Shown here in pieces: positions 3,311 through 28,447 of a stretch of 43,605 nt of DNA; the first letter of the stretch is position 1; the number at the start of each line of letters is the position of its first letter. Origin of the DNA: a virus; the IMG/VR virus record IMGVR_UViG_3300022751_000005, positions 1 through 43,605 of that record; one strand, 5' to 3'. A model generated the notes under the pieces. That model was not told where the DNA came from. It did not search any database and worked only from the letters and a program-made list of their open reading frames with translations. The position numbers were made by a program, and so were the translations under genes.

Positions 3311-3318
3311 TATATTTG
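3311..3318 (+). promoter_or_regulatory. TATATTTG promoter element of RNA element C
   Basis: Perfect TAnnTTTG match 25 bases after the terL stop. It precedes the three-hairpin RNA at 3323-3415. No good TTTG -33 element is seen at the usual 19-21 base distance. Confidence 0.6.
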
Positions 3319-3322
3319 CCCT

Positions 3323-3415
3323 TAACTGATGTGAAGATGCATCATCCCGAATGTATGAGAGATCAATTCAATATTAATTTACCGCTACCGGCTTCATTGT
3401 CGGCAGCGGTTTTTT
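3323..3415 (+). ncRNA. Kissing-loop RNA element C (three hairpins, terminator end)
   Basis: Hairpin 1 is TGATG (3327-3331)/CATCA (3340-3344) with loop TGAAGATG. Hairpin 2 is weak, AATT around CAATATT. Hairpin 3 is ACCGCT (3381-3386)/AGCGGT (3405-3410) with an inner CCG/CGG after one mismatch and loop GCTTCATTGT, followed by a T-run. Loop 1 TGAAG (3332-3336) is complementary to loop 3 CTTCA (3392-3396). The arrangement matches elements A, B and D, though this copy is the weakest. A 30-codon frame from ATG 3337 to TAA 3427-3429, overlapping the portal ATG, also fits here, so a leader peptide is an alternative. Confidence 0.6.
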
Positions 3416-3428
3416 ACTTTGGTAAATA

Positions 3429-4700
3429 ATGAATTGGTTTCAGAACACCCTTGCGAGAATAGCAGGAATCCCTACGCTCGACGAGGTTGTGATGTATGTA
3501 AACGACCAGATTAACGGAAGCACGAATTTTCAAAGCGCAACCGATGATAAAAAGAAGTTGGAGCGCATATTTAGCAATCCGGCTTTATTAAAAGTATTCT
3601 GTTTACAATGCGATATGTTTAGTTTAGGAAAAGTTTACGTTTACCAAAACGGCAAAGCATTAAAAACAGATCCGTTCCTTGATATGATTAAGCAGCCAAA
3701 CCCGTTCCAAAGGGAAGCTCAGTTTAAGTGGGATTTTATGTTTTGGAATATGATAGGTAACACCTACGTGTATGCTGATTCTTATATTCCGGCAATCGAC
3801 AACAAACTGTACATTCTGGAGAATCACAAAATGAAGTTCCCGACTGAAATGTTGACTTATCAGGATAAGATTGTGCTTTCTAAGTCAACAGAGGATGCGA
3901 TAAACAATTTTGATATTGAATATCGCTATGCTGACGGAACGGCTACGAATCTTAATTGGAGGTATATTATCCACAACCCAGACCTTAGCAACGGTACGGG
4001 TAATTGGTTTGGAGGTCAAAGCCGGATTGATGCGCTTTACAAAATCGTAAGCAATTCCGAAAGGGCAATTGAGGCAAAGAACGTCAATTTGCAGTATTCG
4101 GCTAAGTTTCTAGTAGCAGGACAGGCAGATCCGGGTAATATCGATCAGCTTCCAATGGGCGAACAGGAAAAGCGTGACATTGAAACCAAAATGAACGGGC
4201 GTAAGCGTGTTTATGCTATTAAAAGCATGATTGACATACAAAGGTTCGTTTCTGATATTGGAGCGTTGAAATTGGACGACAGCTACCTGGCAGACTATTT
4301 TACAATCGGATCGATGTACGGCATCCCTAAAGACGTTTTAGAGGCATTCAATAGCGGAACTTATGAGAACCAGGAAAAAGCAAGAGGAGCGTTCGTTTCT
4401 TACTGCTTGCAGCCAAAGGGCAACGGATGGTTTGAAAGCCTTGCGAGTTTCTTTGGATACACCGATAAGACAATATTGATCGATTGGGAACACTTGCCGT
4501 TTATGCAGGTTTTCGCCAAGGAACGAGCCGAAACAGATAAAATCAAGTCTGAAACGCTGCTAAATTATATGAAAGCCGGGGTTACAATGGATCAGATTAA
4601 CGAAATGTTGGATTTGGAATTAAGAGAATTGAATTATGAAACAGCAAACAGAGTCTCAAGCACCCAACAGCAAAACACACAAGAAAGTCAAAAAGTCTGA
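3429..4700 (+). CDS. Portal protein (HK97-type)
   Basis: A 423-aa protein at the portal position between large terminase and prohead protease. Features typical of HK97/SPP1-like portals are the N-terminal amphipathic segment MNWFQNTLARIAGI, an early aromatic-rich stretch with KWDFMFWNMIGNTYVYAD (about residues 98-115), the clip/stem region, and a C-terminal helical tail ending in a Gln/Ser-rich stretch. It forms the dodecameric DNA channel at the capsid vertex. Assigned by order and general resemblance. Confidence 0.85.
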   Translation: MNWFQNTLARIAGIPTLDEVVMYVNDQINGSTNFQSATDDKKKLERIFSNPALLKVFCLQCDMFSLGKVYVYQNGKALKTDPFLDMIKQPNPFQREAQFKWDFMFWNMIGNTYVYADSYIPAIDNKLYILENHKMKFPTEMLTYQDKIVLSKSTEDAINNFDIEYRYADGTATNLNWRYIIHNPDLSNGTGNWFGGQSRIDALYKIVSNSERAIEAKNVNLQYSAKFLVAGQADPGNIDQLPMGEQEKRDIETKMNGRKRVYAIKSMIDIQRFVSDIGALKLDDSYLADYFTIGSMYGIPKDVLEAFNSGTYENQEKARGAFVSYCLQPKGNGWFESLASFFGYTDKTILIDWEHLPFMQVFAKERAETDKIKSETLLNYMKAGVTMDQINEMLDLELRELNYETANRVSSTQQQNTQESQKV

Positions 4701-4726
4701 AAAGGCAGTATTTATACCAAAAGAAG

Positions 4727-5401
4727 ATGAACAAGATAACAAAAAGCCTCAAAACCACCGTTAACGACGTGACCGAAAAAGGGATCGTTATTATCGGAAT
4801 TACCCAGTTTGACCAATACGACAGCGACAATGACCGTTTACTTACGGGTTCTTTATCAAAGACGTGGACGGAAAGCAAGCAGGTACACCTTATCGATCAT
4901 CAAAAGGGCATGAGTACGTTTGTTGGATTGCCAATTGCCAAAGATCCAAAGACCGGAATTGTAGAAAGTCAGTTGAACTTAAATAAACAAGTCGGAATTG
5001 ATTTATTGGCAGATTATAAATTTAGCCAAGAACACGGGCGCTCTTTGCAGCACTCTCACGGTTTCATGGCGGTATCTGGCAAATACACTAAAAACGACAA
5101 AGGCGGTAAAGATTTTGCGGAAATCAAACAATTCGAGTATAGCACGTTGTTGTTTGGCGCAGTAAGTAATACGCCTTTGCATGGTATCAAATCAGATACA
5201 GATATTAACGAACTTATCGAAACGCTTACTTTGAAAGTTTCATTCGGTAACTATACCGATGAATATGGCAAACTTTTAGAAACAAAATTACAGGAATTAA
5301 AATCAATGATATTAGAGCCGCAACAGCACTCTGAAGAAACAAACGAGCCGCAGGAAAGCACTCAACAACTTAAAACTTTTTATTCACTATTAACATCTTA
5401 A
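4727..5401 (+). CDS. Prohead protease (HK97 family, S78-like)
   Basis: A 224-aa capsid maturation protease that would cleave the N-terminal scaffold region of the capsid protein. The herpesvirus/HK97-type catalytic pattern is visible: His58 in LIDHQKGM and Ser110 in LQHSHGFM, followed by the characteristic EYSTLLFGAVSNTPLHG segment (about 142-158). It lies directly between portal and capsid genes. The C-terminal tail is Glu/Gln-rich and probably disordered. Confidence 0.88.
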   Translation: MNKITKSLKTTVNDVTEKGIVIIGITQFDQYDSDNDRLLTGSLSKTWTESKQVHLIDHQKGMSTFVGLPIAKDPKTGIVESQLNLNKQVGIDLLADYKFSQEHGRSLQHSHGFMAVSGKYTKNDKGGKDFAEIKQFEYSTLLFGAVSNTPLHGIKSDTDINELIETLTLKVSFGNYTDEYGKLLETKLQELKSMILEPQQHSEETNEPQESTQQLKTFYSLLTS

Positions 5402-5405
5402 AAAA

Positions 5406-6662
5406 ATGGATGAAGTAACAAAAGCGGCAGAGGAATTGAAAGGTCAAATCGAAGGATTTAAAACCGAACTTACCAAAGCAGCTACCAAAGAAGAATTCAA
5501 ATCTTTAGAAGACAAGATTGAAGAATTCGTAAAATCAAATAAGCCAGACGAAACATTAGCTGCTACCGTTAAGGAGCTAAAAGAGCAGTTGGCTATTGTA
5601 AAAGAACACACGCACACGTTTGAGGCGAAAGGTTTTGATTTGATGGAAACCATTGAAAAAGGACTGAAAGACTTTTTGCCAAAAGTAAAAGAACACGCCA
5701 AAAACAATCCAGGTGAAAAAGCATGGGAGTTGGAGCTTGAAATTAAAGCACCAATCAACATGTCCACTACTGCGATCACAAATAACACGGCTACTCCGGT
5801 AAATTATGTTTATCAGCAAGTGACCGACTACATGAGTGATCCGAGAGCCAGACAGTACATTTTGCCTTACCTTTCAAACGGGAACACAAACAAAGCGTCG
5901 CTTCCTTACATGGATAAAATCCCAACCGAAGGAACAATGGCGATTACAGCGGAAGGCGCATTGAAACCGCTTATTTCTGTATCGTTTGTTTTGCGTTATT
6001 CGACAGCGAAGAAAATGGCCGGACGTACCAAAATATCCGAAGAAGCATTGGACGATTTACCGAATATCATGTCTATTATCCGTAACGAATTGGTTTACCA
6101 ACACGATATTGCGGTACAGGCTGACGTATTTGTTTTCGCATCAGCATTCGCCCCGGCGTTTGTTGCAGGGGATTTAGCAGCTTCTACAGAGGCTCCAAAT
6201 AACTACGATGTTATCCGTGCCGCTGCTTATGCAATTAAAATTGCCTCAAAAGGTATGTTTATTCCTAACGCTGCGGTTGTGCCAAGTGCTGACGTTTACG
6301 AAATGGGAGCCACGAAAGACCTTAACGGTAATTACGTACTGCCTCCTTTCGTATTGCCTGACGGTACCCGTGTTGAAGGAATGGCTATCATCGAAGATCC
6401 TTACGGGGTTGTAGCTGCCGGAAACTTCATTGTTGGGGATTGGAAACAAATCCACCGTGACGTTTACAAATCTTTCACCGTTCGCATCGGACAGGGTATT
6501 GTTGGAAACGCAACAGCGGCCAATATCGTTTCTGATTTTGAATCGAACATGTACACGATTATTGGAGAAAGCCGTTACCACTTGTGGGGTTATGAAAATG
6601 CAAAAGTAGCATTTGTTGAAGGAACATTCGCTGCTGTTAAAACGGCAATCGAAGCGGCTTAA
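5406..6662 (+). CDS. Major capsid protein (HK97 fold) with N-terminal delta domain
   Basis: A 418-aa protein immediately after the protease. Residues 1-105 are highly charged and coiled-coil-like (repeated KAAEELK and EELKEQL type heptads), the usual scaffold or delta region removed by the protease. The remainder, from about residue 115, has the mixed composition and length (about 300 aa) of an HK97-fold capsid subunit. Stretches such as ARQYILPYLSNG and NYVLPPFVLPDGTRVEGM resemble those of phage capsid proteins. Confidence 0.88.
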   Translation: MDEVTKAAEELKGQIEGFKTELTKAATKEEFKSLEDKIEEFVKSNKPDETLAATVKELKEQLAIVKEHTHTFEAKGFDLMETIEKGLKDFLPKVKEHAKNNPGEKAWELELEIKAPINMSTTAITNNTATPVNYVYQQVTDYMSDPRARQYILPYLSNGNTNKASLPYMDKIPTEGTMAITAEGALKPLISVSFVLRYSTAKKMAGRTKISEEALDDLPNIMSIIRNELVYQHDIAVQADVFVFASAFAPAFVAGDLAASTEAPNNYDVIRAAAYAIKIASKGMFIPNAAVVPSADVYEMGATKDLNGNYVLPPFVLPDGTRVEGMAIIEDPYGVVAAGNFIVGDWKQIHRDVYKSFTVRIGQGIVGNATAANIVSDFESNMYTIIGESRYHLWGYENAKVAFVEGTFAAVKTAIEAA

Positions 6663-6687
6663 TTTATTAATCTAAAAACCATATATC

Positions 6688-6987
6688 ATGCCAGACGAAA
6701 AAGCAGTAACTACCAAAAGTGTAGTTTTGACAGACGATCAGAAAGAGGAAACAAACTCGGCTACTAAGAAAGCGCAAGCTGCTTACGAAGGTGATCATCA
6801 CATGGATAAAGTCGAAGTGACTATTAACCAGAAAACCAAGTACTACAAAAAAGGGCAGAAAGACACGGTACATCCTACCGTTGCCTTGATTATGCAGGAA
6901 AAAGGGATTATCGACAAAGGGTGGGAGAAAAATGTAAAGAAATACAACGCTCCCAAAGTAGTAGACGGACAACTCGCAACTAACTAA
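6688..6987 (+). CDS. Hypothetical virion-region protein (99 aa)
   Basis: A small, Lys-rich, hydrophilic protein (MPDEKAVTTKSVVL...) between the capsid gene and a connector-like gene. No family was recognised. Position suggests a head accessory or decoration protein, but this is only inference. The overlapping minus-strand frame at 6667-6996 is a shadow. Confidence 0.7.
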   Translation: MPDEKAVTTKSVVLTDDQKEETNSATKKAQAAYEGDHHMDKVEVTINQKTKYYKKGQKDTVHPTVALIMQEKGIIDKGWEKNVKKYNAPKVVDGQLATN

Positions 6988-6989
6988 AA

Positions 6990-7667
6990 ATGCCATACTT
7001 AATAGACGACACTTTTTTTATTGGAAAGATAGAAGTTTCCAATCTCGATGAAGCAAATTCAAAGTCTTTAACGGCGTTGAATAGAATCATCGACGAAAAG
7101 TGTCGTTTGTTATTAATCAGAGCACTTGGGGCGACAAACTTTCAGACAATGGATAGTTTTCTGGTTGACGGAAAATTACCCCCTGTTCCAGAAAGTCCGG
7201 CAGTAGATCCAGTTCCGACAAAGTGGCGTAATTTAATCACCGGGTGCAATTACACGGTTGATGGTGTTGCAAAGCGATGGAAAGGGTTGTATTTTACCGA
7301 AGGCACTTACAAGGGTTCTTTATTGGCGAATTACTGTTTCCCTTTTTATCTGGAAGAAAACGTTTCTTATCAAAGTGGTGTTGGAGAAGTGAAAGCTGAG
7401 GCGAAAAACGCAAGAGGCGTGAACTCAACTCAGAAATACACAACGGTTTGGAATGAGTTCTTAGAAATGTATCAGGGTTCGGAATGTTTACGAAGAGTAG
7501 GCAATATTTACCACGTTGGTATTCCGCAATACGAAGGCTATTATGTCGGATATTTCGGAAACAATAACAACGATGTTTCTTTGCTTGAGTTCTTATCTGA
7601 AAACGCTACTGATTATCCTGATTGCGAATTGTACGTTTACGAAGTTAAAAATCAGTTAGGATTATGA
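6990..7667 (+). CDS. Probable head-tail connector protein (225 aa)
   Basis: Starts 2 bases after the previous stop and overlaps the next gene by 4 bases. It has no catalytic motif. It contains aromatic-rich stretches (RWKGLYFTEGTYKGSLLANY near residues 98-117) and a Gly/Asn run (FGNNNND). In siphoviruses with this gene order the genes after the capsid encode adaptor and stopper proteins, so a neck role is likely. The function is inferred from order only. Confidence 0.6.
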   Translation: MPYLIDDTFFIGKIEVSNLDEANSKSLTALNRIIDEKCRLLLIRALGATNFQTMDSFLVDGKLPPVPESPAVDPVPTKWRNLITGCNYTVDGVAKRWKGLYFTEGTYKGSLLANYCFPFYLEENVSYQSGVGEVKAEAKNARGVNSTQKYTTVWNEFLEMYQGSECLRRVGNIYHVGIPQYEGYYVGYFGNNNNDVSLLEFLSENATDYPDCELYVYEVKNQLGL

Positions 7668-8203
7668 TAGTAGTCGAAACGCTTTTAAGGGAGATTTTTA
7701 GCCAGATTCCTGACGTGGTTTATACGGACGTGAATAGAGGGGAAAACTCTTTAAAAGTAAATTTCGGATGGGGAAGTGAAAAGGATTTGATTCTTTACTT
7801 AAAATCATTACAAGGGAATAAATACCCTTTGATTTGGTTAGTACAAGGTAACAGACAATCCGATTCATTATACACCGGAAAAACGAGTAAACGGATAAAG
7901 CTGATTATTGCTAAGAATTCAGAACACAAAACAAACATCAATCCAACGGTTTGGGACACGGAGTTTGTAGAAATGCTTAACCCACTATATGACAAAGTGC
8001 TAAAATGCCTCGAAAGAAGCGGAGTAACTAAAATTGTAGACGGTTTATATGACACGGATCGTCGTGCTAACTATACTGAAGAAGCATTGGAAGATAAAAC
8101 TTACGCAATCGATATTTGGAATGTAATTGTTTTTGAGGCTAACGTTAACTTCTACGAAAAAGCAAACGGCGAACCCATGTGTATTCACAAAATTAAATTC
8201 TAA
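7664..8203 (+). CDS. Probable neck or tail-completion protein (179 aa)
   Basis: Overlaps the previous gene by ATGA. The protein is a mixed alpha/beta sequence (SLQGNKYPLIWLVQG, then RIKLIIAKNSEHKTN) with the size and position of a tail-terminator or head-completion protein. No motif proves this, and the assignment rests on gene order. Confidence 0.55.
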   Translation: MIVVETLLREIFSQIPDVVYTDVNRGENSLKVNFGWGSEKDLILYLKSLQGNKYPLIWLVQGNRQSDSLYTGKTSKRIKLIIAKNSEHKTNINPTVWDTEFVEMLNPLYDKVLKCLERSGVTKIVDGLYDTDRRANYTEEALEDKTYAIDIWNVIVFEANVNFYEKANGEPMCIHKIKF

Positions 8204-8207
8204 TCAA

Positions 8208-8399
8208 ATGAAAGAAAATACACCGCCTGCAAAAGAGCAGCCACAAGAAACACAGACCGAGGCAGCAGCTAAAAGTCGTAATTTCAAAGTAACAAAAGAA
8301 ATCTTAGTTGACGGCAAAAACTATCTGCCAGGTCATACTATTGCTTTGAATGAACAAAAACAAATTGATAGTTTAAAACAATCTAAACACATCAAGTAA
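8208..8399 (+). CDS. Small hypothetical protein (63 aa)
   Basis: ATG 8208 follows the previous stop by 4 bases and the stop overlaps the next ATG (TAATG). The N-terminal half is Glu/Gln/Pro-rich and probably disordered. The C-terminal half (KVTKEILVDGKNYLPGHTIA) looks like a small beta-rich domain. The frame extends upstream inside the preceding gene, but ATG 8208 is the natural start. No family was recognised. Confidence 0.7.
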   Translation: MKENTPPAKEQPQETQTEAAAKSRNFKVTKEILVDGKNYLPGHTIALNEQKQIDSLKQSKHIK

Positions 8400-9346
8400 T
8401 GGACGAATTACAAGAATTATTGGACAGCTTAAATGTTGTAAATTGCGATGGTGGAGATATTTTCGGAACCGGACAAGCTGGTTGTAAATTTGATTGGAGC
8501 CGAATTAAGACTTTGGAATTTTCAAAGATCGGTTTCAAGTATGAAGGAAAGTCGTTGGCTTATATTCAGGAGCAACAGCAAAAAGGCAATTTAATTATTG
8601 CTCAAAACGTGGTTTCTTTTGTAGATGCTACCGCAGATCCGAATATCATCACTCGTGAAGGTTCAGGACTAAAAGTTGTTGCTGGAGAAAATCCATACGA
8701 ATACAACATCACTTTTGACAATGGCGTGAACTTCTGGAAAGCATTGCGATCAATGAATAGCAACGGCCAATACGCTTTGGCTTTGTATGATACTGAAGGA
8801 AACAAAATCTTCACTCAAACAAAATCCGGCGTTGTACGTGGCTTTAACCTTGCGATGATGCAGACGGGTAAATATGTTGGTAAAGACGGAGTTAATGCAT
8901 CTGGTCAGGTTTTGACCTTGCAAATTGCAGACTTCAAAGATATGGATCGCCAAACATGGATTACTGCTGACGAACTCGATTACTCTCCAAGTGATTTGGA
9001 CGGTGTAAACGATGTTGAAATTACCTTAAATCCTGTTGTTGCTGGAGCTACTACATTGGTGTTTACGCCGCTATTGAAAGACAGAACACATTTAGTCGAA
9101 GGGTTATTGCTTGCTGACTTTTTAGCTCAGAAAACAACAGCCGGAGTAACCACAACCGTAACACCGACCGGAACCGCAGTTTACAACAATACAGATAAAA
9201 CCGTGACGCTTACAATTGCCGCCGCAGTTGCCGGAAGCATTTACACCGTAAAATTGTGGGATGCTGATTTGGGTGTGCCGATTATCGTAACGCCTAACTT
9301 CGGATTGGCTAAATCAAACGAAGCAAGCGCATTGGCATCAGCATAA
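8399..9346 (+). CDS. Probable major tail (tube) protein
   Basis: A 315-aa protein just upstream of a terminator and of the tail assembly genes. It begins with a Cys-containing region (NVVNCDGGDIFGTGQAGC) and is largely beta-rich. The last 100 residues are rich in Thr/Ala/Val (TTAGVTTTVTPTGTAVYNNT, then LTIAAAVAGSIYTVKLWD) and look like an added Ig-like decoration domain. Size, composition and position before the tape-measure block fit a tail tube subunit, but no diagnostic motif is present. Confidence 0.6.
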   Translation: MDELQELLDSLNVVNCDGGDIFGTGQAGCKFDWSRIKTLEFSKIGFKYEGKSLAYIQEQQQKGNLIIAQNVVSFVDATADPNIITREGSGLKVVAGENPYEYNITFDNGVNFWKALRSMNSNGQYALALYDTEGNKIFTQTKSGVVRGFNLAMMQTGKYVGKDGVNASGQVLTLQIADFKDMDRQTWITADELDYSPSDLDGVNDVEITLNPVVAGATTLVFTPLLKDRTHLVEGLLLADFLAQKTTAGVTTTVTPTGTAVYNNTDKTVTLTIAAAVAGSIYTVKLWDADLGVPIIVTPNFGLAKSNEASALASA

Positions 9347-9367
9347 AAAGAATTGGGTTAGTTTATC

Positions 9368-9398
9368 AAAGCCGCTGCATTTTGTGGCGGCTTTTTTA
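9368..9398 (+). terminator. Rho-independent terminator after the tail tube gene
   Basis: Perfect 8-bp stem AAAGCCGC (9368-9375)/GCGGCTTT (9387-9394), loop of 11, then a T-run. A promoter element follows within two bases of the T-run. Confidence 0.85.
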
Positions 9399-9399
9399 A

Positions 9400-9407
9400 T
9401 ATCTTTG
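9400..9407 (+). promoter_or_regulatory. TATCTTTG promoter element
   Basis: Perfect TAnnTTTG match directly after the terminator and 4 bases before ATG 9412, predicting a leaderless transcript for the tail block. Confidence 0.65.
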
Positions 9408-9411
9408 AATT

Positions 9412-9849
9412 ATGGGAACGATTCGGGACTTATTGGATAAAGCGAAGTTTGTTAGGGAAGGAATACCCGGAGAAGTTGCCGCTATTATAGACCGGAACAA
9501 AGGCAAGATTCTGGATATTAACCGAGAAATGCAGTTGTTTGAAAAAGGTATAAATTCTGACGGTGAAATGCTAAAACCGTACGCTCCGAAAACCATAAAA
9601 ATAAAGCGCTCAAAAGGCGAAGTTTACAATAGACGCACGTTATTAGATACCGGGGATTTTTACAGGGGATTTGATTTATTGAACCGGAACAACACAATTA
9701 CGATATTTTCAAGGGATTCTAAAAGCAGCGAATTACAGGATGATAATGGAAGCAATATTTTTGGAATCACAAAAGAAAATCAACCTTACTACAATTACGA
9801 AATAATCAAACCTGAATTGCAGGATTTCATAAATAAACACATCGGATAA
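9412..9849 (+). CDS. Probable tail morphogenesis/completion protein (145 aa)
   Basis: First gene of the tail unit. The central stretch with KPYAPKTIKIKRSKG then RRTLLDTGDFYRGF (about residues 55-85) resembles the (Y)xPxTxxxK...LLdTGxLxxS pattern of virion-morphogenesis or HK97 gp10-like proteins, which complete the tail or neck. It is followed directly by the next gene with no spacer. Assigned from this motif resemblance and context. Confidence 0.55.
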   Translation: MGTIRDLLDKAKFVREGIPGEVAAIIDRNKGKILDINREMQLFEKGINSDGEMLKPYAPKTIKIKRSKGEVYNRRTLLDTGDFYRGFDLLNRNNTITIFSRDSKSSELQDDNGSNIFGITKENQPYYNYEIIKPELQDFINKHIG

Positions 9850-10512
9850 ATGGAGTACACGGGTAGAAAATCACAACCAAAATTAAGCATTGATGATGTA
9901 TTTTTATCAATCGATGATATTATTTTGTACAATTTCGATATGTACAGGAAAACCAACGACAACAATTGGTTTTTGAAAACGTACACCGGAAAAGAAAAGA
10001 AATTGGATCATCATTTAATAAAACCATTTGAGGAAAAAATTAATGATGAATATTACAAGGCTACCAATGACCAGACTTTTCAAACATTTATCCAGCGCCT
10101 TGCTAAAATCGACAATTTGCAAACAAAATATACCGTTGTATCAGCCTTGGTTGAGCGTATGCGTTTAGGATTTGGCGTTTCAGACGATCAGCAGCGAATT
10201 CGTTATATGATGGTGCAACAGATAAAGGATTGGAAATACAAAATGCCTTATCATAATTTTGCTACTCCAGCAGAGGATTTTGAGCAGTTGAACAATGTGG
10301 CTGCTCAATTGCCGGGAATCAAAACCGCCATTGCGTTAATCAATGATGAACTCCAAAAAGAAGGTTCAAAGCAAACATTGTCATTATACAAACAATTGGT
10401 GATTATTTCTTCTGCTTTGCAGTTAGGCTACGAAATAGACTCCAGAAAAATAACCGTACGTAAATGGCTTGATTTAGGCGAATTAATGCGTGAAAAAGCT
10501 AAAAAAAACTAA
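9850..10512 (+). CDS. Hypothetical protein before tape measure, possible tail assembly chaperone (220 aa)
   Basis: Mostly helical and charged, positioned immediately upstream of the tape-measure gene where tail assembly chaperones normally lie. The gene ends with GCT AAA AAA AAC TAA, which contains an A-AAA-AAC slippery heptamer (10503-10509) in the right phase. A -1 shift would add only about 11 codons, so a lambda G/GT-type product is not evident. Function is inferred from position only. Confidence 0.5.
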   Translation: MEYTGRKSQPKLSIDDVFLSIDDIILYNFDMYRKTNDNNWFLKTYTGKEKKLDHHLIKPFEEKINDEYYKATNDQTFQTFIQRLAKIDNLQTKYTVVSALVERMRLGFGVSDDQQRIRYMMVQQIKDWKYKMPYHNFATPAEDFEQLNNVAAQLPGIKTAIALINDELQKEGSKQTLSLYKQLVIISSALQLGYEIDSRKITVRKWLDLGELMREKAKKN

Positions 10513-10515
10513 GCA

Positions 10516-15768: not shown

Positions 15769-15776
15769 TAATATTG
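15769..15776 (+). promoter_or_regulatory. TAATATTG promoter-like element of RNA element D
   Basis: One mismatch from TAnnTTTG, the same form as the element at 35734-35741. A GTTG at 15745-15748 sits 20 bases upstream at the -33 position. It abuts the stop codon of the preceding gene. Confidence 0.5.
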
Positions 15777-15780
15777 TCTA

Positions 15781-15895
15781 CTGAAATACAACAAGCGGAA
15801 TATTAGAGGGATTCCAATTGTACGATATACAGAGTTGAATTAATAGTTTAACTTCTGAAACCGTGACCCGACGAACCTCTAATTTGTCGGGTTTT
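15781..15895 (+). ncRNA. Kissing-loop RNA element D (three hairpins, terminator end)
   Basis: Hairpin 1: GGAAT (15797-15801)/ATTCC (15811-15815), loop ATTAGAGGG. Hairpin 2: AGTTGAAT (15833-15840)/GTTTAACT (15846-15853), eight pairs including two G-U, loop TAATA. Hairpin 3: ACCCGAC (15866-15872)/GTCGGGT (15886-15892), loop GAACCTCTAATTT, then TTTT. Loop 1 ATTAGAGG (15802-15809) pairs with loop 3 CCTCTAAT (15876-15883) by eight Watson-Crick pairs, the longest loop-loop match of the four elements. No plausible ORF of normal size lies here. Confidence 0.75.
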
Positions 15896-15919
15896 CGCGT
15901 TTTATAAATAATTAGGATT

Positions 15920-16132: not shown

Positions 16133-16136
16133 CATT

Positions 16137-17426: not shown

Positions 17427-17450
17427 GAATACATTTTTAATACCACTTTT

Positions 17451-17480
17451 AAATCCTTGCTGTAATGGTAAGGATTTTTT
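17451..17480 (+). terminator. Rho-independent terminator
   Basis: AAATCCTT (17451-17458) pairs perfectly with AAGGATTT (17470-17477) around GCTGTAATGGT, followed by T residues. It closes the 15920-17426 unit and is followed at once by a promoter. Confidence 0.85.
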
Positions 17481-17483
17481 ATT

Positions 17484-17491
17484 TATATTTA
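17484..17491 (+). promoter_or_regulatory. TATATTTA promoter element
   Basis: One base from TAnnTTTG, 4 bases before ATG 17496 and directly downstream of a terminator. The spacing equals that at the other predicted leaderless starts. Confidence 0.55.
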
Positions 17492-17495
17492 CACC

Positions 17496-18662
17496 ATGAC
17501 AATTGACAACGCACTTTTACGCTTTAAAACCTCTTTAAAAGCCGCCAAAGAACTAGGCGATAGTAAGGTTGCAGAAGTTTGGGATTGGTCATTTTTATGC
17601 GTTTCCCCTGTTGAGGAATACCTACAAATATCAAACTTCAACACCGATATTAATTTCGGCGGTGATTATAAAGCTGAATTAGTGGATTGCTGCGATAAGG
17701 TTTTAAAAGACATTACCAGTAACGTTTTCATTTATCAGGGTTCAAACTCGGAATCAGGTTATCAGAATATAGCCGTCGAACTTGCTTACATCGGGGATTT
17801 CTACCCGCATTGGGGGCGTAAGTGCTATTTAAAAATATCGCAAAATACTGGGCCGGCTGTTATTTACAGCAATCCATTTCACGTGGCTTATAATCTAAAA
17901 GAGGTGCTGCGCATCGATTACCGAGGCTACGGAATGAACAACGGTGTTGATTATACGAACTTCAATTTTATGCAGTCGTTTGGGGTTAAAGGCTGGTTCA
18001 ATAAATTCACAGATGAAACAGAAACCGAAAAGTATTTACAAGAGTCCGGCAATACAGTTTCCAGCAACGCAACGGTATCGTTATTGGCAGAATATACTTT
18101 TGAACACGTTTCAGTCCACGCCCAAAAAGCACTTGCTAGATGGATCAGGTCGCCACGATTTTATTTAAACGGCGTTCGTCACACAGCCAATCAATTATCA
18201 CTTGGCGAACGTGAAGGAAACAGCAACTTTTACGAAGGTAAGTTTTCAGGTTATCCAAACGAATTAGACACCTACACGCCAACACTGCAAATCGCACCGC
18301 TTTTATCATTCACGCCAATTTATCCTGTCGGTGTTTATACATTAGCCGGGTTACTTCCAAAAATACAAGGTCAATTCAACTACCCCATAACTCTAGGAAC
18401 GGGCAATTTATACGTAAGGAAAGTTTCGGACGGCTCAATTGTAAAAACATTCACGCAGTCGGATATTATTGTAACGGATAATTCATTTGAAATAAATCAA
18501 GCCGCTGCGGATGAAAATGGGGAATATTATATTACTTTTGATAGCAGTTTGTTTTCGTTTCCATTTGGATTAAGTGAGTATGTTGTTGATTGGAAGTTTA
18601 AAATAAGCGCAGGGGATTGGTTAAATACGGATTGGAATAACAGCGATTTCTTTACAAATTAA
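17496..18662 (+). CDS. Hypothetical tail-region protein (388 aa)
   Basis: No family recognised. The body is beta-rich with many aromatic residues (SNPFHVAYNLKEVLRIDYRG, residues about 126-145). The C-terminal 100 residues (LLPKIQGQFNYPITLGTGNL, then ITFDSSLFSFPFGLSEYVVD) look like an Ig-like or fibre-associated beta domain. It starts a new unit running through the fibre genes, so it is probably a tail or receptor-binding component. Confidence 0.6.
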   Translation: MTIDNALLRFKTSLKAAKELGDSKVAEVWDWSFLCVSPVEEYLQISNFNTDINFGGDYKAELVDCCDKVLKDITSNVFIYQGSNSESGYQNIAVELAYIGDFYPHWGRKCYLKISQNTGPAVIYSNPFHVAYNLKEVLRIDYRGYGMNNGVDYTNFNFMQSFGVKGWFNKFTDETETEKYLQESGNTVSSNATVSLLAEYTFEHVSVHAQKALARWIRSPRFYLNGVRHTANQLSLGEREGNSNFYEGKFSGYPNELDTYTPTLQIAPLLSFTPIYPVGVYTLAGLLPKIQGQFNYPITLGTGNLYVRKVSDGSIVKTFTQSDIIVTDNSFEINQAAADENGEYYITFDSSLFSFPFGLSEYVVDWKFKISAGDWLNTDWNNSDFFTN

Positions 18663-18665
18663 GAT

Positions 18666-19166: not shown

Positions 19167-19167
19167 A

Positions 19168-21956: not shown

Positions 21957-21970
21957 TTATTAACCTTAAA

Positions 21971-21978
21971 TATATTTG
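21971..21978 (+). promoter_or_regulatory. TATATTTG promoter element
   Basis: Perfect TAnnTTTG match 3 bases before ATG 21982, predicting a leaderless mRNA. Confidence 0.65.
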
Positions 21979-21981
21979 CGC

Positions 21982-22641
21982 ATGATTAAAAAACTACTCT
22001 TTATTCTTATCGGCTTTTCATTACAGGCTCAGACCTCTACAAAGCCGTTGCCGTCATTGGCAATTCCACAATCTGTAAGCCCTAATAATTTCGTGTTTGT
22101 TGACGGGAACAATGGCGGATTGTGGGGAACTGCATTACCAGGGTCAATTGCTTGGCTACCTAGTAACATTACGGGGTTTGATACAGCTGCTAGAAATGCA
22201 ATTACACTAACCACGACCGGATCAGGCGCTGCAAGTTATAGCGGTGGTGTAATAAACATTCCAACTCCTTTAGCTTCGTTTGCAAAAGGATTCTCTAACA
22301 ATGTGTCCAGATCTTTGAATTCAAACTTTACAATTTCCACAACAAGGGATTGTAACGTAAGCTATTCAATAAACTTAAGTTGCACCAATCCTTTATTAGC
22401 GGGAAGTTCATCGGCAAATGCGTTTTTGGAATATTCAACGGATGCGGGCGCGACTTGGATTACAGTATCTGATGTTTCAAACGCATCAAGTGTTGCCCTT
22501 GCTGTGGCTATTGCAATTACACAGCCTAGTAGGTTTGTTTTATCAGGTCTTATTCCGGCCAACGCATTAGTTAGGATTAGAAGCACAACATCTGGGACTG
22601 CATCTGTAACATACGGACGTGGACAGGAAGTTTTGCTTTAG
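21982..22641 (+). CDS. Secreted or virion protein with signal peptide (219 aa)
   Basis: ATG 21982 is preferred over the in-frame TTG at 21976, which lies inside the promoter element. The first 20 residues (MIKKLLFILIGFSLQAQ...) form a clear signal peptide of flavobacterial type, probably cut near AQ. The mature part is rich in Ser, Asn, Ala and Thr (GSGAASYSGGVINIPTP, then LSCTNPLLAGSSSANAFLEY) and resembles fibre C-terminal domains. A fibre-like domain with an export signal is unusual for a phage. It may be surface-displayed during infection, or the N-terminus may act as an anchor. Confidence 0.7.
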   Translation: MIKKLLFILIGFSLQAQTSTKPLPSLAIPQSVSPNNFVFVDGNNGGLWGTALPGSIAWLPSNITGFDTAARNAITLTTTGSGAASYSGGVINIPTPLASFAKGFSNNVSRSLNSNFTISTTRDCNVSYSINLSCTNPLLAGSSSANAFLEYSTDAGATWITVSDVSNASSVALAVAIAITQPSRFVLSGLIPANALVRIRSTTSGTASVTYGRGQEVLL

Positions 22642-22650
22642 AAAATTACT

Positions 22651-22658
22651 TATCTTTG
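22651..22658 (+). promoter_or_regulatory. TATCTTTG promoter element
   Basis: Perfect TAnnTTTG match, 4 bases before the GTG start at 22663. Predicts a leaderless transcript. Confidence 0.6.
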
Positions 22659-22662
22659 TTAA

Positions 22663-22935
22663 GTGAGAAAAAAGATACTTGTTTTCGTTTCCTTGTTTGG
22701 CTTCCTGTTAATTGCTAAAAGCGCAATGGGATTGTCCTCTGTTGAAGAAATCGTAATGAAATCTGACGGACAAGGCAACGTTTACATAAAGTATCAAACA
22801 GTTTCTTATCCAATACCTGACGTTAGGGCGTTTGATGGGAAAGACAGCGTTAAAATCATCCACAACGATCGAACGGGTTGTATAATAAAAGGCAAGCCTA
22901 ATTCGGAATTTAAAATCAGATTTATAACCAATTAA
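22663..22935 (+). CDS. Small secreted protein (90 aa), GTG start
   Basis: Starts with GTG 4 bases after TATCTTTG. Residues 1-23 (MRKKILVFVSLFGFLLIAKS...) are a signal peptide or N-terminal anchor. The remaining 65 residues form a compact, probably beta-rich domain (KSDGQGNVYIKYQTVSYPIP). No family was recognised. It begins the accessory block and precedes a 60-aa gene and a membrane protein, and its export suggests action in the periplasm or outside the cell. Confidence 0.65.
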   Translation: MRKKILVFVSLFGFLLIAKSAMGLSSVEEIVMKSDGQGNVYIKYQTVSYPIPDVRAFDGKDSVKIIHNDRTGCIIKGKPNSEFKIRFITN

Positions 22936-22945
22936 TTTTTATACA

Positions 22946-23128
22946 ATGGGAAACCCTACAAATCCGCCATTAGAGCAATTCAAAGAAGTAATTTTCAGAT
23001 ATGAAGCCGAGCCAACAGGGGCAAGGCTAACCGAGTACAACACGTTAAAGGCGCAAATGGAAACAGCCGGATTTACTGTGATTATGCAAATCGGGCCGCC
23101 TGTTGCGCCACACACAGGAACAAAATAA
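22946..23128 (+). CDS. Small hypothetical protein (60 aa)
   Basis: Ten bases after the previous stop, with its own stop overlapping the next ATG (TAATG). The sequence is hydrophilic with LEQFKEVIFRYEAEPTGARL. No family was recognised. Coupling to its neighbour supports expression. Confidence 0.6.
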   Translation: MGNPTNPPLEQFKEVIFRYEAEPTGARLTEYNTLKAQMETAGFTVIMQIGPPVAPHTGTK

Positions 23129-23556
23129 TGAAGTGGTTATTCAGGATATTTTTAATCATAGCGCTTATCATTTCGATTGGCGCTATTTTTATTAATACGG
23201 ATGTTTGGGATTACATTTACGTATTGGTTCAGGCAAATTGGGAGTTGATCTATCTTGTTGTTGTAATGCTGCTTTTTAAGAGGCTTTATTCAATTGGACT
23301 TATCAAAATATCAAAGTCGGAATATTACGTTTCAGTTGTAGGATTTTACGCTTTAATTTCAAGTGCGGTCGCAAATGTGTTTCACGGACTTTTATTGTAC
23401 TTTGCTAAAACGGAATTCGGCTCAATGACTTGCGAGTATTACGAAAACCTTTGGGGGTATTATTGGAAGTCGATGTTTTGGTACTGGGCAATTTACGGAA
23501 TTGTGTTTTTGATACTGATGATTTCTTTGCTTATTAGTTTGCCGGAAAGGAAATAA
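23128..23556 (+). CDS. Integral membrane protein (142 aa)
   Basis: Four hydrophobic segments are visible: about residues 5-22 (FRIFLIIALIISIGAIFI), 31-48, 65-90 and 118-137 (YGIVFLILMISLLISL). No recognised family. The -33 element TTTG of RNA element A lies within its last codons. It may alter the host membrane or be a superinfection or accessory protein, but nothing in the sequence decides this. Confidence 0.65.
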   Translation: MKWLFRIFLIIALIISIGAIFINTDVWDYIYVLVQANWELIYLVVVMLLFKRLYSIGLIKISKSEYYVSVVGFYALISSAVANVFHGLLLYFAKTEFGSMTCEYYENLWGYYWKSMFWYWAIYGIVFLILMISLLISLPERK

Positions 23557-23568
23557 TGTTTATGTTTG
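23538..23568 (+). promoter_or_regulatory. Bacteroidetes-type promoter of RNA element A
   Basis: TTTG at 23538-23541, a 19-base spacer, then TATGTTTG at 23561-23568. Both elements match the TTTG/TAnnTTTG consensus with normal spacing. This is among the best promoters in the window, and transcription should start at about 23571-23573, the base of hairpin 1. Confidence 0.8.
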
Positions 23569-23570
23569 CG

Positions 23571-23665
23571 TACTGTTTTATCGGCTCGAAACGTCTAACA
23601 GTCAATTATCAAACTATTTAATTTGATAGGGAAAACCCGTAGCATTCGAGTGTTGCGGGTTTTTT
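23571..23665 (+). ncRNA. Kissing-loop RNA element A, before rtcB
   Basis: Hairpin 1: ACTGT (23572-23576)/ACAGT (23598-23602). Hairpin 2: TATCAAA (23607-23613)/TTTGATA (23622-23628). Hairpin 3: AAAACCCG (23632-23639)/CGGGTTTT (23656-23663), ending in a T-run. Loop 1 CTCGAA (23585-23590) is the reverse complement of loop 3 TTCGAG (23645-23650), and a G-U pair can extend it. Element B has the same layout with CTCGACA/TGTCGAG, a compensating change. A strong promoter sits immediately upstream and rtcB starts 20 bases after the terminator. Confidence 0.8.
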
Positions 23666-23684
23666 CGGTTTAATACTTTTTATT

Positions 23685-24899
23685 ATGAAAAATCTAACTG
23701 TGTTTGGTTCTGAAATTATTGACCAAAAATGTATTACACAGATTGAAAATTGTATTGGAGAAAATGACATTGCAGTTTTAACATCCGATGCGCATTATGG
23801 TTACGGACACCCAATTGGAGGGGCAATCGCTTACAAAGACAAAGTTTCTTTGTCAGGTGTAGGTTTTGATATTGCTTGCGGAAACAAAGCTGTTAGAACC
23901 GATATTTTAGCTGACGATATTGACGTTGCAAAAGTGATGGACGAACTTTTCAAAAGGATTTCTTTTGGAGTTGGTCGCCATAATGACGAGCCTGTTGATC
24001 ATGAAGTTTTTGATAAAATTGCAAGCGCTGATTTCTTGCCGCAAAGAAAATTATTACAGTTGGCTAAAAATCAACTTGGAACAGTTGGAAGCGGAAACCA
24101 TTACGTTGATTTATTTCGGGGGAAAGATGGTTATTTGTGGATCGGAAACCATTTTGGCTCACGAGGTTTCGGTCATAAAACAGCAATGGGATTTATAGCG
24201 TTGTCTCAAGGATTAGGATTTGAAGATAAAGCAAACGAGGGCGGAATGGATAAGCCGCCTATTTTATTTGACACGAATACGAACTTAGGACAATCGTACT
24301 TGTCCGCAATGCATTTGGCCGGCGAATACGCTTATGCTGGTCGTGATATGGTAATTTCTAAAGTTCTTGAAATTTTAGACAATCCAACTGTAACTTTTCA
24401 AGTACATAATCATCACAATTTCGCTTGGAAAGAAAATCATTTCGGAAACGATTATTGGGTAGTTAGAAAAGGTTGTACTCCAGCTTTTCCAAATCAGTTA
24501 GGATTTATTGGCGCAAATATGCTCGATAAATCTGTAATAATTGAGGGTGTTGACACTGAGTTAGCGAAAACCACACTTTACTCAACGGTTCACGGCGCTG
24601 GTCGTGTAATGTCAAGAACAGAGGCGGCAGGAAAAAAGAAATGGATTGCTGATGAAAATGGGAAAAAACGACCAACAATCGTAGCAAAGGGAAAGGTTGA
24701 TTTTGATTTGGTTAAAGAAACCATGAAAACACACAAAATCGAACTACGTGGAGCTGGCGCAGATGAAGCGCCGCAATGCTATAAAAAGCTAAATGAAGTT
24801 TTAGGATTTATGGGAGATACTATCAAAGTGTTACATGAATTAGAACCAATTGGAGTAGCAATGGCAGGAAGTGATACATTCGACCCTTACAAAGATTAG
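23685..24899 (+). CDS. rtcB: RNA-splicing/repair ligase RtcB
   Basis: A 404-aa GTP/Mn-dependent RNA ligase that joins RNA 3'-phosphate or 2',3'-cyclic phosphate ends to 5'-OH ends. Family motifs present: SDAHYGYGHPIGGAIAY (34-50), the metal-binding GVGFDIACG (58-66, Asp62 and Cys65), GTVGSGNHYVDL (132-143), a His-rich HNHHNFAWKE (241-250), and the guanylylation HGAGR (303-307) followed by VMSR. No frameshift, normal length. Its substrates could be host-cleaved tRNAs or phage RNAs. It lies between RNA element A and an HNH gene. Function is confident, substrate unknown. Confidence 0.95.
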   Translation: MKNLTVFGSEIIDQKCITQIENCIGENDIAVLTSDAHYGYGHPIGGAIAYKDKVSLSGVGFDIACGNKAVRTDILADDIDVAKVMDELFKRISFGVGRHNDEPVDHEVFDKIASADFLPQRKLLQLAKNQLGTVGSGNHYVDLFRGKDGYLWIGNHFGSRGFGHKTAMGFIALSQGLGFEDKANEGGMDKPPILFDTNTNLGQSYLSAMHLAGEYAYAGRDMVISKVLEILDNPTVTFQVHNHHNFAWKENHFGNDYWVVRKGCTPAFPNQLGFIGANMLDKSVIIEGVDTELAKTTLYSTVHGAGRVMSRTEAAGKKKWIADENGKKRPTIVAKGKVDFDLVKETMKTHKIELRGAGADEAPQCYKKLNEVLGFMGDTIKVLHELEPIGVAMAGSDTFDPYKD

Positions 24900-24905
24900 A
24901 TTATT

Positions 24906-24932
24906 ATCCCGTCCTAACAGTCGGGATTTTTT
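24906..24932 (+). terminator. Rho-independent terminator after rtcB
   Basis: ATCCCG (24906-24911)/CGGGAT (24922-24927) with loop TCCTAACAGT and a following T-run. A promoter element follows 3 bases later. Confidence 0.8.
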
Positions 24933-24935
24933 ATT

Positions 24936-24943
24936 TACATTTG
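24936..24943 (+). promoter_or_regulatory. TACATTTG promoter element
   Basis: Matches TAnnTTTG. It lies just downstream of the rtcB terminator and 18 bases before ATG 24962. Confidence 0.6.
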
Positions 24944-24961
24944 ACGATTAATTTAATACTT

Positions 24962-25354
24962 ATGAAAAAACAGGATAGGCAATTAATTCACGATAAATTT
25001 GGCGGCAAATGTGCTTATTGCGGTACGGATCTTCTAAAAGGTTGGCACGTTGATGAAATTGAACCAGTTAGACGAAATTTTGTATATGATAAATCAAAAG
25101 GCAGTCATAAATCAGACGGCACTTGTATGCATCCTGAAAGGTTTCACATCGATAATCAAAATCCGTCTTGCGCAAGCTGTAATATAAATAAGCACTCAAT
25201 GTCCTTAGAAGAATTCAGGAAGCAGATTTCAGGATTTATGAACCACTTAAACAACATCAGTACTCAATATAAAATAGCAAAACGCTACGGTCTTGTTTCA
25301 GAAACGAATATTGAGGTTAAATTTTATTTTGAAACTTTAAATAACAACCAATGA
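24962..25354 (+). CDS. HNH endonuclease
   Basis: A 130-aa HNH nuclease. Zinc ligands CAYC (17-20) and CASC (70-73) frame the fold. His29 in WHVDEIEPV and Asn67/His78 in NQNPSCASCNINKHSM supply the catalytic signature, followed by SLEEFR as in many HNH proteins. The frame opens upstream at TTG 24941, inside the promoter, so ATG 24962 is preferred. It overlaps the metalloprotease gene by 4 bases. It may be a free-standing homing-type nuclease or serve in DNA processing. It is not next to the terminase genes, where packaging-linked HNH genes usually are. Confidence 0.85.
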   Translation: MKKQDRQLIHDKFGGKCAYCGTDLLKGWHVDEIEPVRRNFVYDKSKGSHKSDGTCMHPERFHIDNQNPSCASCNINKHSMSLEEFRKQISGFMNHLNNISTQYKIAKRYGLVSETNIEVKFYFETLNNNQ

Positions 25355-27129
25355 AAAAACTACTAATTATCCTACTTTTCCCAATCCTAACATTCGCCCA
25401 ATGGACAAAACAACAATCCAAAACAGGCGAGCCTATTCACAACTTGAACAAAAAAACGTTCACAAAACAACTGAACGCTAAAAAAGCGACCTTTCCAGAC
25501 GCCGATGGAAACTTATCTCAGTACGCACTTATCGAAGATTTTAATTTTGCTGATAAAAAAATAGCACAGAAATACGGACTAAGGAGTTTTCACGGTTTTG
25601 ATAAAGACGGACGGTCGATTAGCATAGCAGTTTCAAAAGAAGGTGTTGAGGCAACAATTACAGATTCGTTGCAAACTTTTGTACGTCCAACTGTTAATGG
25701 TTATAAAATAGGGCGTGTTGAAAGCAAAAAGGAGTTTTCCTGCGATGTTGACGAAAGGCAAGTTATATCTGATTTTACGGATAGAGCTAAAGCAAATCAA
25801 AAGGCGGCGGTTGTTAGAGGTGATATAACCGTTATCCGAATGGCAATAGCTATCAATTTCGAAGGTATGAAGCAAATCGGTTTAACACAGGCGAAAGGAC
25901 TTGCGTACTTGAACACATTAATGACTGCCGTAAACAAGCAATTAAGAGCCAATAACGGTGTAATTGGTCAATTGGTAGTCGGGAATGAAAAGCTGCTTTG
26001 TATTAACTCTGACGATCCATTTACGACACAAGACAAATGGACAGTACAAAGCCAGGTATTTATTGACAAAGTAATCGGTTCGGAAAATTACGACCTCGGA
26101 CATGTTCTGACTATTGGGGTTGGCGGGAATGCAGGCGGTATCGGAACGGTTACAAATCCAACTTTGAAAGGCTCGGCTTATTCAGCAACGCCAAATATGA
26201 CCGATCCGTATTTCTTTACCGATGTTGTTGTCCACGAAATTGGTCACCAATTAGGCGCAACCCACACGTTCAGTTACAAAGGTGTTGGGGTGGCGAATAT
26301 GGAATCTGGCAGCGGATGCACGGCTATGAGTTACGCAGGAATTGCCGGAGCAAATTATAATTTACAATCACATTCCTATCCGTTTTTTCACGGGCAATCT
26401 ATTAACCAGATTAACCAAACTTTGGGATTGAAAACCTCTTTAGGAAGCATCAATACAGGGAATCGCAACCCGATTATTACAAGCTCTATTGATAGAGTTG
26501 TTGAGTTCGACACGCCTTTTTCATTGTCGGCAATCGCAACTGATCCGGATGGTGACGAATTATATTATCAATGGGACGAAATCGATCCTACGGTTATCGC
26601 TTACACTATTCCAAAACCTACAAACTTTTCCGGCTCAATGTTCGCAAGCGTGTTGCCTTCAAAGCTGAATTACCGGAACTTTTATCTGCGTGACAAATGG
26701 AACGTTTACCCAACAATTTCACGGGTCTGTAATTTTATGCTTACAGTAACGGACAGCAAAGGCGGGCGGGCGCAACAAAAAGTAAAAGTTACATTTGTAC
26801 CGCCAGTTCCAAAAGTTAGCAATGCGCCTATTTTATCATACTTTCCCGGAACGCTTACGAAAACCAGCGTAAAACTGCAATGGAGTATCCCGGTTAATTT
26901 TTCAACCGTTGGATATAGTTTGTACAAAAATCCTGATGTTGATGATACCTCTTTAAAAGGCAATGAAAAAGAAAACTATCAGGCTAGTACTACAAACACA
27001 TTCATAACTGTAACATTCAATGCAGCCGACAAGCTCAAAGGTAGCGTTATATACGTTGTGAAAGGGAAAAATTCAGACGGTTGGCGAACTGAAAAAAGTA
27101 ATAGTTTGTTAGTTGATATTCCGAAATAA
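25351..27129 (+). CDS. Secreted zinc metalloprotease (metzincin, reprolysin-like)
   Basis: A 592-aa exported protease. Signal peptide at 1-17 (MKKLLIILLFPILTFAQ). The catalytic zinc site HEIGHQLGATH is at 295-305, with the Met-turn in GCTAMSYAG (Met326), which places it among metzincins of M12B type. Residues about 370-480 (RVVEFDTPFSLSAIATDPDG) look like a cadherin/PKD-like domain. Residues about 490-592 look like a fibronectin III domain (SNAPILSYFPGTLTKTSVKL). The secretion-type C-terminal sorting domain common in host relatives is not evident. Such a protein in a phage genome is unusual; it is either cargo or a virion or lysis-aiding enzyme. Confidence 0.88.
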   Translation: MKKLLIILLFPILTFAQWTKQQSKTGEPIHNLNKKTFTKQLNAKKATFPDADGNLSQYALIEDFNFADKKIAQKYGLRSFHGFDKDGRSISIAVSKEGVEATITDSLQTFVRPTVNGYKIGRVESKKEFSCDVDERQVISDFTDRAKANQKAAVVRGDITVIRMAIAINFEGMKQIGLTQAKGLAYLNTLMTAVNKQLRANNGVIGQLVVGNEKLLCINSDDPFTTQDKWTVQSQVFIDKVIGSENYDLGHVLTIGVGGNAGGIGTVTNPTLKGSAYSATPNMTDPYFFTDVVVHEIGHQLGATHTFSYKGVGVANMESGSGCTAMSYAGIAGANYNLQSHSYPFFHGQSINQINQTLGLKTSLGSINTGNRNPIITSSIDRVVEFDTPFSLSAIATDPDGDELYYQWDEIDPTVIAYTIPKPTNFSGSMFASVLPSKLNYRNFYLRDKWNVYPTISRVCNFMLTVTDSKGGRAQQKVKVTFVPPVPKVSNAPILSYFPGTLTKTSVKLQWSIPVNFSTVGYSLYKNPDVDDTSLKGNEKENYQASTTNTFITVTFNAADKLKGSVIYVVKGKNSDGWRTEKSNSLLVDIPK

Positions 27130-27141
27130 TTTGTATGTTTG
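27112..27141 (+). promoter_or_regulatory. Promoter of RNA element B
   Basis: TATGTTTG at 27134-27141 is a perfect -7 match, identical to that of element A. The -33 element is weaker: GTTG at 27112-27115, 18 bases upstream. Confidence 0.7.
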
Positions 27142-27144
27142 CGA

Positions 27145-27239
27145 TACCGTTTGGCTCGACACTCACGGTTAAAATTAGATAATTATACACTCTAATTGGA
27201 TAAAAGGCGTAGTTTCTGTCGAGGATTCTGCGCCTTTTT
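27145..27239 (+). ncRNA. Kissing-loop RNA element B, before the RlmN/Cfr-like gene
   Basis: Hairpin 1: ACCGT (27146-27150)/ACGGT (27165-27169). Hairpin 2: AATTAGA (27173-27179)/TCTAATT (27191-27197). Hairpin 3: AAAAGGCGTAG (27202-27212)/CTGCGCCTTTT (27228-27238), then a T-run. Loop 1 CTCGACA (27155-27161) pairs fully with loop 3 TGTCGAG (27217-27223). It is clearly related to element A (shared GGCTCGA in loop 1, CGTAG in hairpin 3), but both stems and the kissing pair differ by compensating changes. The next gene starts 17 bases downstream. Confidence 0.8.
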
Positions 27240-28287: not shown

Positions 28288-28290
28288 CTT

Positions 28291-28365: not shown

Positions 28366-28410
28366 CGAAAATCCGACATGAGGCGAAGGCCGCAACTGCT
28401 CCGGTAACTA

Positions 28411-28446: not shown

Positions 28447-28447
28447 T

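Follow-up and report, generated by a model that had tools for sequence, protein, structure and literature searches.

The window analysed here is the whole of IMG/VR virus record IMGVR_UViG_3300022751_000005 (G000), a complete record of 43,605 bases. Positions 1-126 and 43480-43605 are identical, forming a direct terminal repeat of ~126 bases such as a circularly closed phage genome should show; the record represents a complete circular or circularly permuted genome of ~43.48 kb. The phage encodes TerL, portal, small terminase, major capsid, tape measure and endolysin proteins as well as a RecT-like protein, an RNA ligase, RtcB and a helicase. Judged by TerL, the cultured phage nearest to it is Olleya phage Harreka_1 (76.8% identity), which makes a flavobacterium the very likely host. 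Four intergenic stretches, referred to as leaders C, D, A and B, carry the element that is the subject of this study: a promoter followed by a first hairpin (H1), in general a second one (H2), and a third (H3) that resembles or constitutes an intrinsic terminator, with the loop of H1 complementary to that of H3 (Table 1). This loop-loop pairing is hereafter called the kiss.

The original prediction, made from the letters of the DNA alone, had placed promoter, H1, H2 and terminator in this order in all four stretches. The arrangement stands at the four positions with two reservations, namely that C has a weak H2 or none and that the flavobacterial -7 box TAnnTTTG, a promoter type of the Bacteroidota, is present in C, A and B but has one mismatch in D. 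Complementarity of loops 1 and 3 is found exactly as had been described, and extends over 5 (C), 8 (D), 6 (A) and 7 bp (B). In Flavobacterium psychrophilum TAnnTTTG occupies positions -12 to -5 (PMC9723704); the transcription starts derived from this spacing lie close to the RNA ends initially proposed. In A and B the predicted start falls on the first or second base of H1, in D the hairpin begins ~10 nt into the RNA, and in the four cases the start codon follows ~20 nt past H3. Compared with 200 shuffles the folds had z-scores of -3.2 (C), -6.3 (A) and -3.7 (B), with 0 or 1 shuffle as good, and -2.7 for D (1/200 as good). For H1 of C the unconstrained minimum-energy fold prefers another weak pairing and its kiss of 5 bp is below the criterion of at least 6 bp; it is on account of its location and architecture that C is counted in the family. 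The sequences of A and B resemble each other, and the two are probably paralogues.

The ordinary joints between operons of the phage show the reverse arrangement, terminator, promoter and gene (near 9368-9412, 17451-17496 and 24906-24941), so that the order promoter-then-terminator is special to these four places. The hairpins at 39739, 30773 and 9368, also upstream of genes, were considered as further candidates and taken as ordinary terminators, as no H1 loop matches them.

Table 1. Predicted features of the four kissing leaders in the window
Leader	Feature	Position	Strand	Details
C	promoter -7 box	3311..3318	+	TATATTTG; predicted +1 = 3323
C	H1	3327..3344	+	stem TGATG/CATCA; loop kiss TGAAG 3332-3336; by eye
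C	H3/terminator	3381..3410	+	kiss CTTCA 3392-3396; U tract 3410-3416
C	downstream gene	3429 (start)		portal
D	promoter-like box	15769..15776	+	TAATATTG; one mismatch to TAnnTTTG (weak); predicted +1 = 15781
D	H1	15791..15821	+	stem ACAA..GGAAT/ATTCC..TTGT; kiss ATTAGAGG 15802-15809
D	H2	15830..15857	+	fold
D	H3, terminator-like	15866..15893	+	kiss CCTCTAAT 15876-15883
D	downstream gene	15920 (start)		70-aa open reading frame (ORF)
A	promoter -7 box	23561..23568	+	TATGTTTG; predicted +1 = 23573
A	H1	23572..23602	+	stem ACTGTT/AACAGT; kiss CTCGAA 23585-23590
A	H2	23607..23628	+	stem TATCAAA/TTTGATA
A	H3/terminator	23629..23666	+	loop kiss TTCGAG 23645-23650
A	downstream gene	23685 (start)		rtcB
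B	promoter -7 box	27134..27141	+	TATGTTTG; predicted +1 = 27146
B	H1	27146..27169	+	stem ACCGT/ACGGT; kiss CTCGACA 27155-27161
B	H2	27173..27197	+	stem AATTAGA/TCTAATT
B	H3/terminator	27202..27238	+	kiss TGTCGAG 27217-27223
B	downstream gene	27257 (start)		radical-SAM

The complementarity of the loops was compared with chance in leaders gathered as promoter-terminator-ORF units, ignoring loop pairing and reduced to non-redundant clusters, by matching every H1 loop first to the H3 loop of the same leader and then to those of all the others (mispaired control). Of the 49 leaders in a first set, 10 carried a kiss of 7 bp or more with at least 3 GC pairs, with 0.33 expected, and the observed number of kisses of at least 7 bp was reached in 0 of 20,000 permutations; in a larger set such kisses were present in 25 of 56 leaders (0.45 expected; 0/5000 permutations). 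Among mispaired loops the rates were ~3% for 6 bp with at least 3 GC, ~0.8% for 7 bp with at least 3 GC and ~0.7% for 8 bp, and 37% of them attained 5 bp, which means that the kiss of C is not significant alone. Family-wide, the excess over chance is decisive. A kiss can also be read as a spaced inverted repeat in DNA, such as an operator or a recombination site; that the pairing is of this nature or fortuitous, rather than a property of RNA, is scarcely credible considering that the order of promoter, U tract and ORF is strand-specific, that the stems of H1 and H3 covary separately and that the rates are far above those of the mispaired controls.

Homologous loci in related phages (designated L) showed that it is the pairing and not the sequence which is conserved, as had been anticipated. 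At the B locus the kiss is CTCGACA/TGTCGAG in the window and L167, ACGGCTAC/GTAGCCGT in L161 and TCGCTAC/GTAGCGA in L170, and among these close relatives the leader is kept while stems, kiss and downstream gene vary, the latter encoding 311, 160, 212 or 170 aa. This difference led to the rejection of a tie between leader and radical-SAM gene, and a tie to rtcB was discarded as well since close rtcB relatives carry other upstream DNA. The site of leader B (window 27257-28192; L161, L170, L167) has the appearance of a cargo site equipped with a promoter and a leader of its own, and the radical-SAM gene located there (27257-28192) shares 51-84% identity with genes of viral contigs that reach 435 kb. 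Leaders of BT4734-type primase genes contain GCTTCTCAC/GTGAGAAGC (L199) and CTCTTCAC/GTGAAGAG (L203), the L203 leader being nearly the same as that of L199 apart from the kiss; other primase leaders carry CCTTCAC/GTGAAGG (L201, L238), CATCTAC/GTAGATG (L206), CTTCCAC/GTGGAAG (L209), CCTCTGAC/GTCAGAGG (L205) and ACATAGGA/TCCTATGT (L271 and allies). In helicase leaders the kiss is CCACTAC/GTAGTGG (L279-L281) and, with the strands exchanged, GTCGTAG/CTACGAC (L286). The kiss of D is identical in three relatives (L131-L133, same leader) and uninformative on co-change. The portal leaders of L087, L092, L093, L097 and L104 keep promoter, H1 and terminator and have no clear kiss. As a separate observation, in the portal leaders of L087, L090, L092, L093 and L097, often kiss-less, the 5-bp stem of H1 varies around a nearly fixed pentaloop, GCGAT or GTGAT, resembling a boxB-type protein-binding hairpin.

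Covariation in the stems and in the loop-loop helix, which the original prediction had named as the support to be sought, was detected when eight leaders of subtype I were aligned by structure (A2). Aligning all subtypes together was rejected (A1, A3), and covariation was counted in subtype I only, because MAFFT misaligned the kiss between subtypes. In A2, 93% of the cells are paired, reaching 100% in the kiss helix, and two-sided changes affect 12 of 27 pairs, including 3 of 7 in the kiss, 3 of 4 in H1 and 2 of 3 in upper H3. The covariation value was 0.378 vs 0.144 +/- 0.027 in shuffles (0/500), and sliding the partners by one column lowered pairing to ~45%.

A prospective scan of all IMG/VR, from which the earlier contigs were excluded, demanded a promoter, a CCAC or CTAC core at H1, its complement 50-66 nt further on and a U tract, leaving three adjoining kiss positions free. 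All three free positions were complementary in 17 of 35 independent new matches, where ~0.8 would be expected; among these 17, an H1 stem of 4-7 bp was present in 16 and an ORF behind in 15, and the total kiss was of 7 bp in 16 and of 8 bp in one. The remaining matches are mostly devoid of a matching H1 stem and several look protein-coding; one of them, L359, is a genuine leader in which one pair is broken.

The common layout that emerges comprises a TAnnTTTG promoter, H1 at ~+1 (start between -3 and +9 of the predicted +1, mostly -1 to +5), usually an A/T-rich H2 and, as H3, an intrinsic terminator with an apical loop that is Watson-Crick complementary to the loop of H1. Among 42 promoter-linked matches there are 26 distinct kisses of 6-9 nt, mostly 7; in 25/42 the kiss directly adjoins the 3' side of the stem of H1, and in 40/42 it has a 5' spacer of 0-3 nt. 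One of its strands usually starts with GU, the H1 kiss ending in AC in 20 cases and starting with GT in 10. The interval between the 3' end of the kiss in H3 and a point 8 nt past this hairpin is 22-32 nt, with one exception. The predicted terminated RNA measures 75-105 nt (median 94), and the ORF starts a median of 16 nt after H3, nearly always within ~25 nt. An ORF lies downstream in sense in 26/26 matches of the cultured and primase/helicase sets and in 15/16 of the portal clade.

Applied to loci that partly overlap, so that counts refer to distinct sequences and not to independent origins, the final scanner yielded 24 matches among primase/helicase loci (0.76 Mb searched) and 16 among portal relatives (1.36 Mb). 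The rtcB loci (1.27 Mb) gave 2, namely L002, a true relative, and L069, apparently fortuitous, and the loci with the radical-SAM gene (0.44 Mb) gave 0. Thirteen cultured or annotated phages gave 2 matches, in Harreka_1 (30070-30169) and on the minus strand of elemoF_6-3D (9325-9215), where the leader precedes replication genes. The predicted RNAs would start at about 30082 in Harreka_1 (~94 nt) and about 9313 in elemoF_6-3D (~105 nt). When the window or leader A was compared with cultured phages at the nucleotide level, nothing useful was returned. The leader family is present across several groups of Bacteroidota phages and is not private to one phage. On the host side, 480 kb of Flavobacteriaceae DNA, among it the surroundings of prophage-type primases and host controls, gave 0 matches to the descriptor, model R1 (subtype I only, strict filters) matched 0 of 399 Flavobacteriaceae genomes, and bacterial genome contigs scanned by TerL and by primase gave none and one distant match, respectively, suggesting, in a small sampling, that the family is absent from host genomes.

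Altogether, these leaders are best read as one leader-RNA family in which the element is, on balance, probably a cis-acting transcription attenuator whose kiss would set the level of readthrough. RNA polymerase would start at the host-type promoter and H1 would fold first. RNA polymerase covers roughly 14-15 nt of RNA, and subtracting this stretch from 26 nt, the H3 kiss segment would leave the enzyme ~10 nt before the termination point, giving the H1 loop the opportunity to bind it while the 3' arm of H3 has yet to emerge. Formation and timing of the loop-loop helix would then determine the balance of termination versus readthrough: polymerase would usually stop just short of the gene, termination leaving a stable ~95-nt pseudoknotted RNA and the gene off, whereas readthrough would turn it on. 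The leader hairpins have energies of -14 to -22 kcal/mol, compared with -8 to -16 for the ordinary terminators of the phage. Since these terminators are strong and the start codon is too near for a second complete promoter, expression of the gene needs readthrough, and for this reason the element would be an attenuator by architecture.

The main rival reading, although somewhat unlikely, is that the terminated ~95-nt RNA is itself the product, a stable phage small RNA with a protein or another RNA as its target in trans, the ends being guarded by the +1 hairpin and the kiss-locked terminator and the downstream gene being expressed only by leak-through. The location of H1, the uniform length of the RNAs, the strong terminators and the several different copies per genome would agree with this proposal. 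On the other hand, no conserved sequence is available as a common target, genes without room for a second complete promoter depend on readthrough, and the start codon keeps its short distance from H3 even in front of essential portal, primase and helicase genes; it is this constant distance that favours attenuation over a free small RNA. Some observations weigh against attenuation. A classical antiterminator helix was rejected, since pairing of the 5' arm of H3 in truncated transcripts (0.41) did not exceed that in shuffles (0.48), and no protein or ligand partner was identified for the leaders. Moreover, several portal leaders lost the kiss and retain promoter, H1 and terminator, and the terminators look strong without the kiss, which may serve RNA shape or stability instead.

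In agreement with the initial statement that the fold matches no known RNA class, Rfam 15 covariance-model scans of the window and a dozen relatives gave no leader family: only tRNAs exceeded the gathering threshold, and the scan by E-value produced chance-level matches (STnc40, 0.56; FdoG1 thermometer, 0.3). No account of kissing loops with phage terminators was found in the full-text collection searched, in which few subscription journals are represented. The kissing leaders are a real RNA family that is apparently new and undescribed; the kind itself, a structured phage leader or attenuator RNA, is already known. They share with attenuators and terminator-type riboswitches the succession of promoter, structured leader, intrinsic terminator and gene, and differ from them in that neither an aptamer core nor an antiterminator helix was found, the conserved feature being the loop-loop helix; with so many distinct kisses, the leaders have no invariant core of the riboswitch type. 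A type III toxin-antitoxin RNA, which would require tandem repeats ahead of a terminator and an endoRNase toxin gene, was discarded, as no repeats were seen within the four leaders and the genes encountered were those for portal, RtcB, radical-SAM protein, primase and helicase.

Kissing complexes such as the retroviral dimerization initiation site (DIS) and ColE1 RNA I-RNA II consist of intermolecular loop-loop helices of 6-7 bp. The kissing leaders resemble them in the size of the helix and in the H1 loop, where the kiss is often preceded by 1-2 nt on its 5' side, and differ in having the partners in cis, on a 5' hairpin and a terminator. Multimerisation of the leader RNAs by loop-loop contacts, as the first reading had contemplated, may be possible. 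A further and unlikely reading would be a new class of RNA regulator in which the loop-loop helix, free to evolve in sequence, is itself the switch; every operon would have a kiss code, the released RNA would act in trans on its own operon only, and one phage genome would contain several attenuators separated by sequence.

The immunity RNAs P4 CI and P1 c4 are phage leaders with complementary segments that cause premature termination and pair in trans with distinct sites. c4 RNA corresponds to RF01695 (PMC2864571). The kissing leaders are also phage leader RNAs with complementary segments, but both loops belong to one ~95-nt RNA and no Rfam c4 match was obtained. Autoregulation in trans in the style of these RNAs or of plasmid antisense RNAs, in which a released leader would terminate its own nascent leader through an operon-specific loop code, is very improbable: loops do differ within one genome (GTGGTCG and CATCTAC in L206; TGTCTAC and GTGGTGG in L208; three kisses in L238 and L286, which are one contig) and kissing loops of 6-8 nt suit intermolecular pairing, yet tethering favours the intramolecular partner, and A and B, both containing CTCGA, are not fully orthogonal.

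HK022 put RNAs are promoter-proximal, ~70 nt long and composed of two stem-loops, have sequence common to the copies and suppress later terminators (PMC9378689). The kissing leaders are likewise structured promoter-proximal phage RNAs ahead of terminators before phage genes, an arrangement seen in lambdoid early genes and put (PMC9378689), and could by analogy constitute processive antitermination sites, RNA-only or protein-dependent as put or lambda nut, in which binding of the kissing RNA to RNA polymerase, or to a phage factor, would make the enzyme resist adjacent and later terminators. This explanation is rather improbable given that put copies share sequence (PMC9378689) while the kissing leaders fix almost no nucleotide outside the promoter and have no shared sequence across subtypes, that their third hairpin, whose loop pairs with H1, is the terminator, placed inside the fold as half of it, and that no factor was identified.

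Almost nothing is known of how Bacteroidota phages regulate their genes, and two cultured phages with the element make direct testing possible. Kissing leaders front replication, packaging and cargo operons, and a family based on pairing is missed by ordinary homology searches, which may explain its absence from Rfam. If the element is an attenuator, the kiss would provide a simple, redesignable on/off element for flavobacteria, in which tools are scarce.

Upstream of the primase gene in L211-L262 (alignment A5), a second conserved leader, unrelated to the kissing family, occupies the same position. It consists of a promoter, AAAGGGGTTGTCGG[AGGCAT or TTAGCTG]CCACNTAAAAGG, then CCTTTCCCC and a U tract, with a covarying stem across the U tract (ACTCGTT/AACGAGT, CACTGTT/AACAGTG, CTTGCTA/TAGCAAG), and looks like a terminator/antiterminator switch; Rfam gave no match at the leader. 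Sub-threshold matches to abiF RNA were recorded in L211 (1550-1585) and L252 (1520-1555), with 32.3 bits against a gathering threshold of 37 and an E-value of 0.035. In the window, the tRNA cluster at 28280-28691 includes two tRNA-Met (CAT) genes, and between them (~28460-28570) there is a tRNA-like stretch whose variable region is long, uncalled by ARAGORN and Rfam. The phage carries two RNA ligases, RtcB (23685-24899) and phrog_14301 (34424-34990), a combination that suggests repair of RNA cut by host defence.

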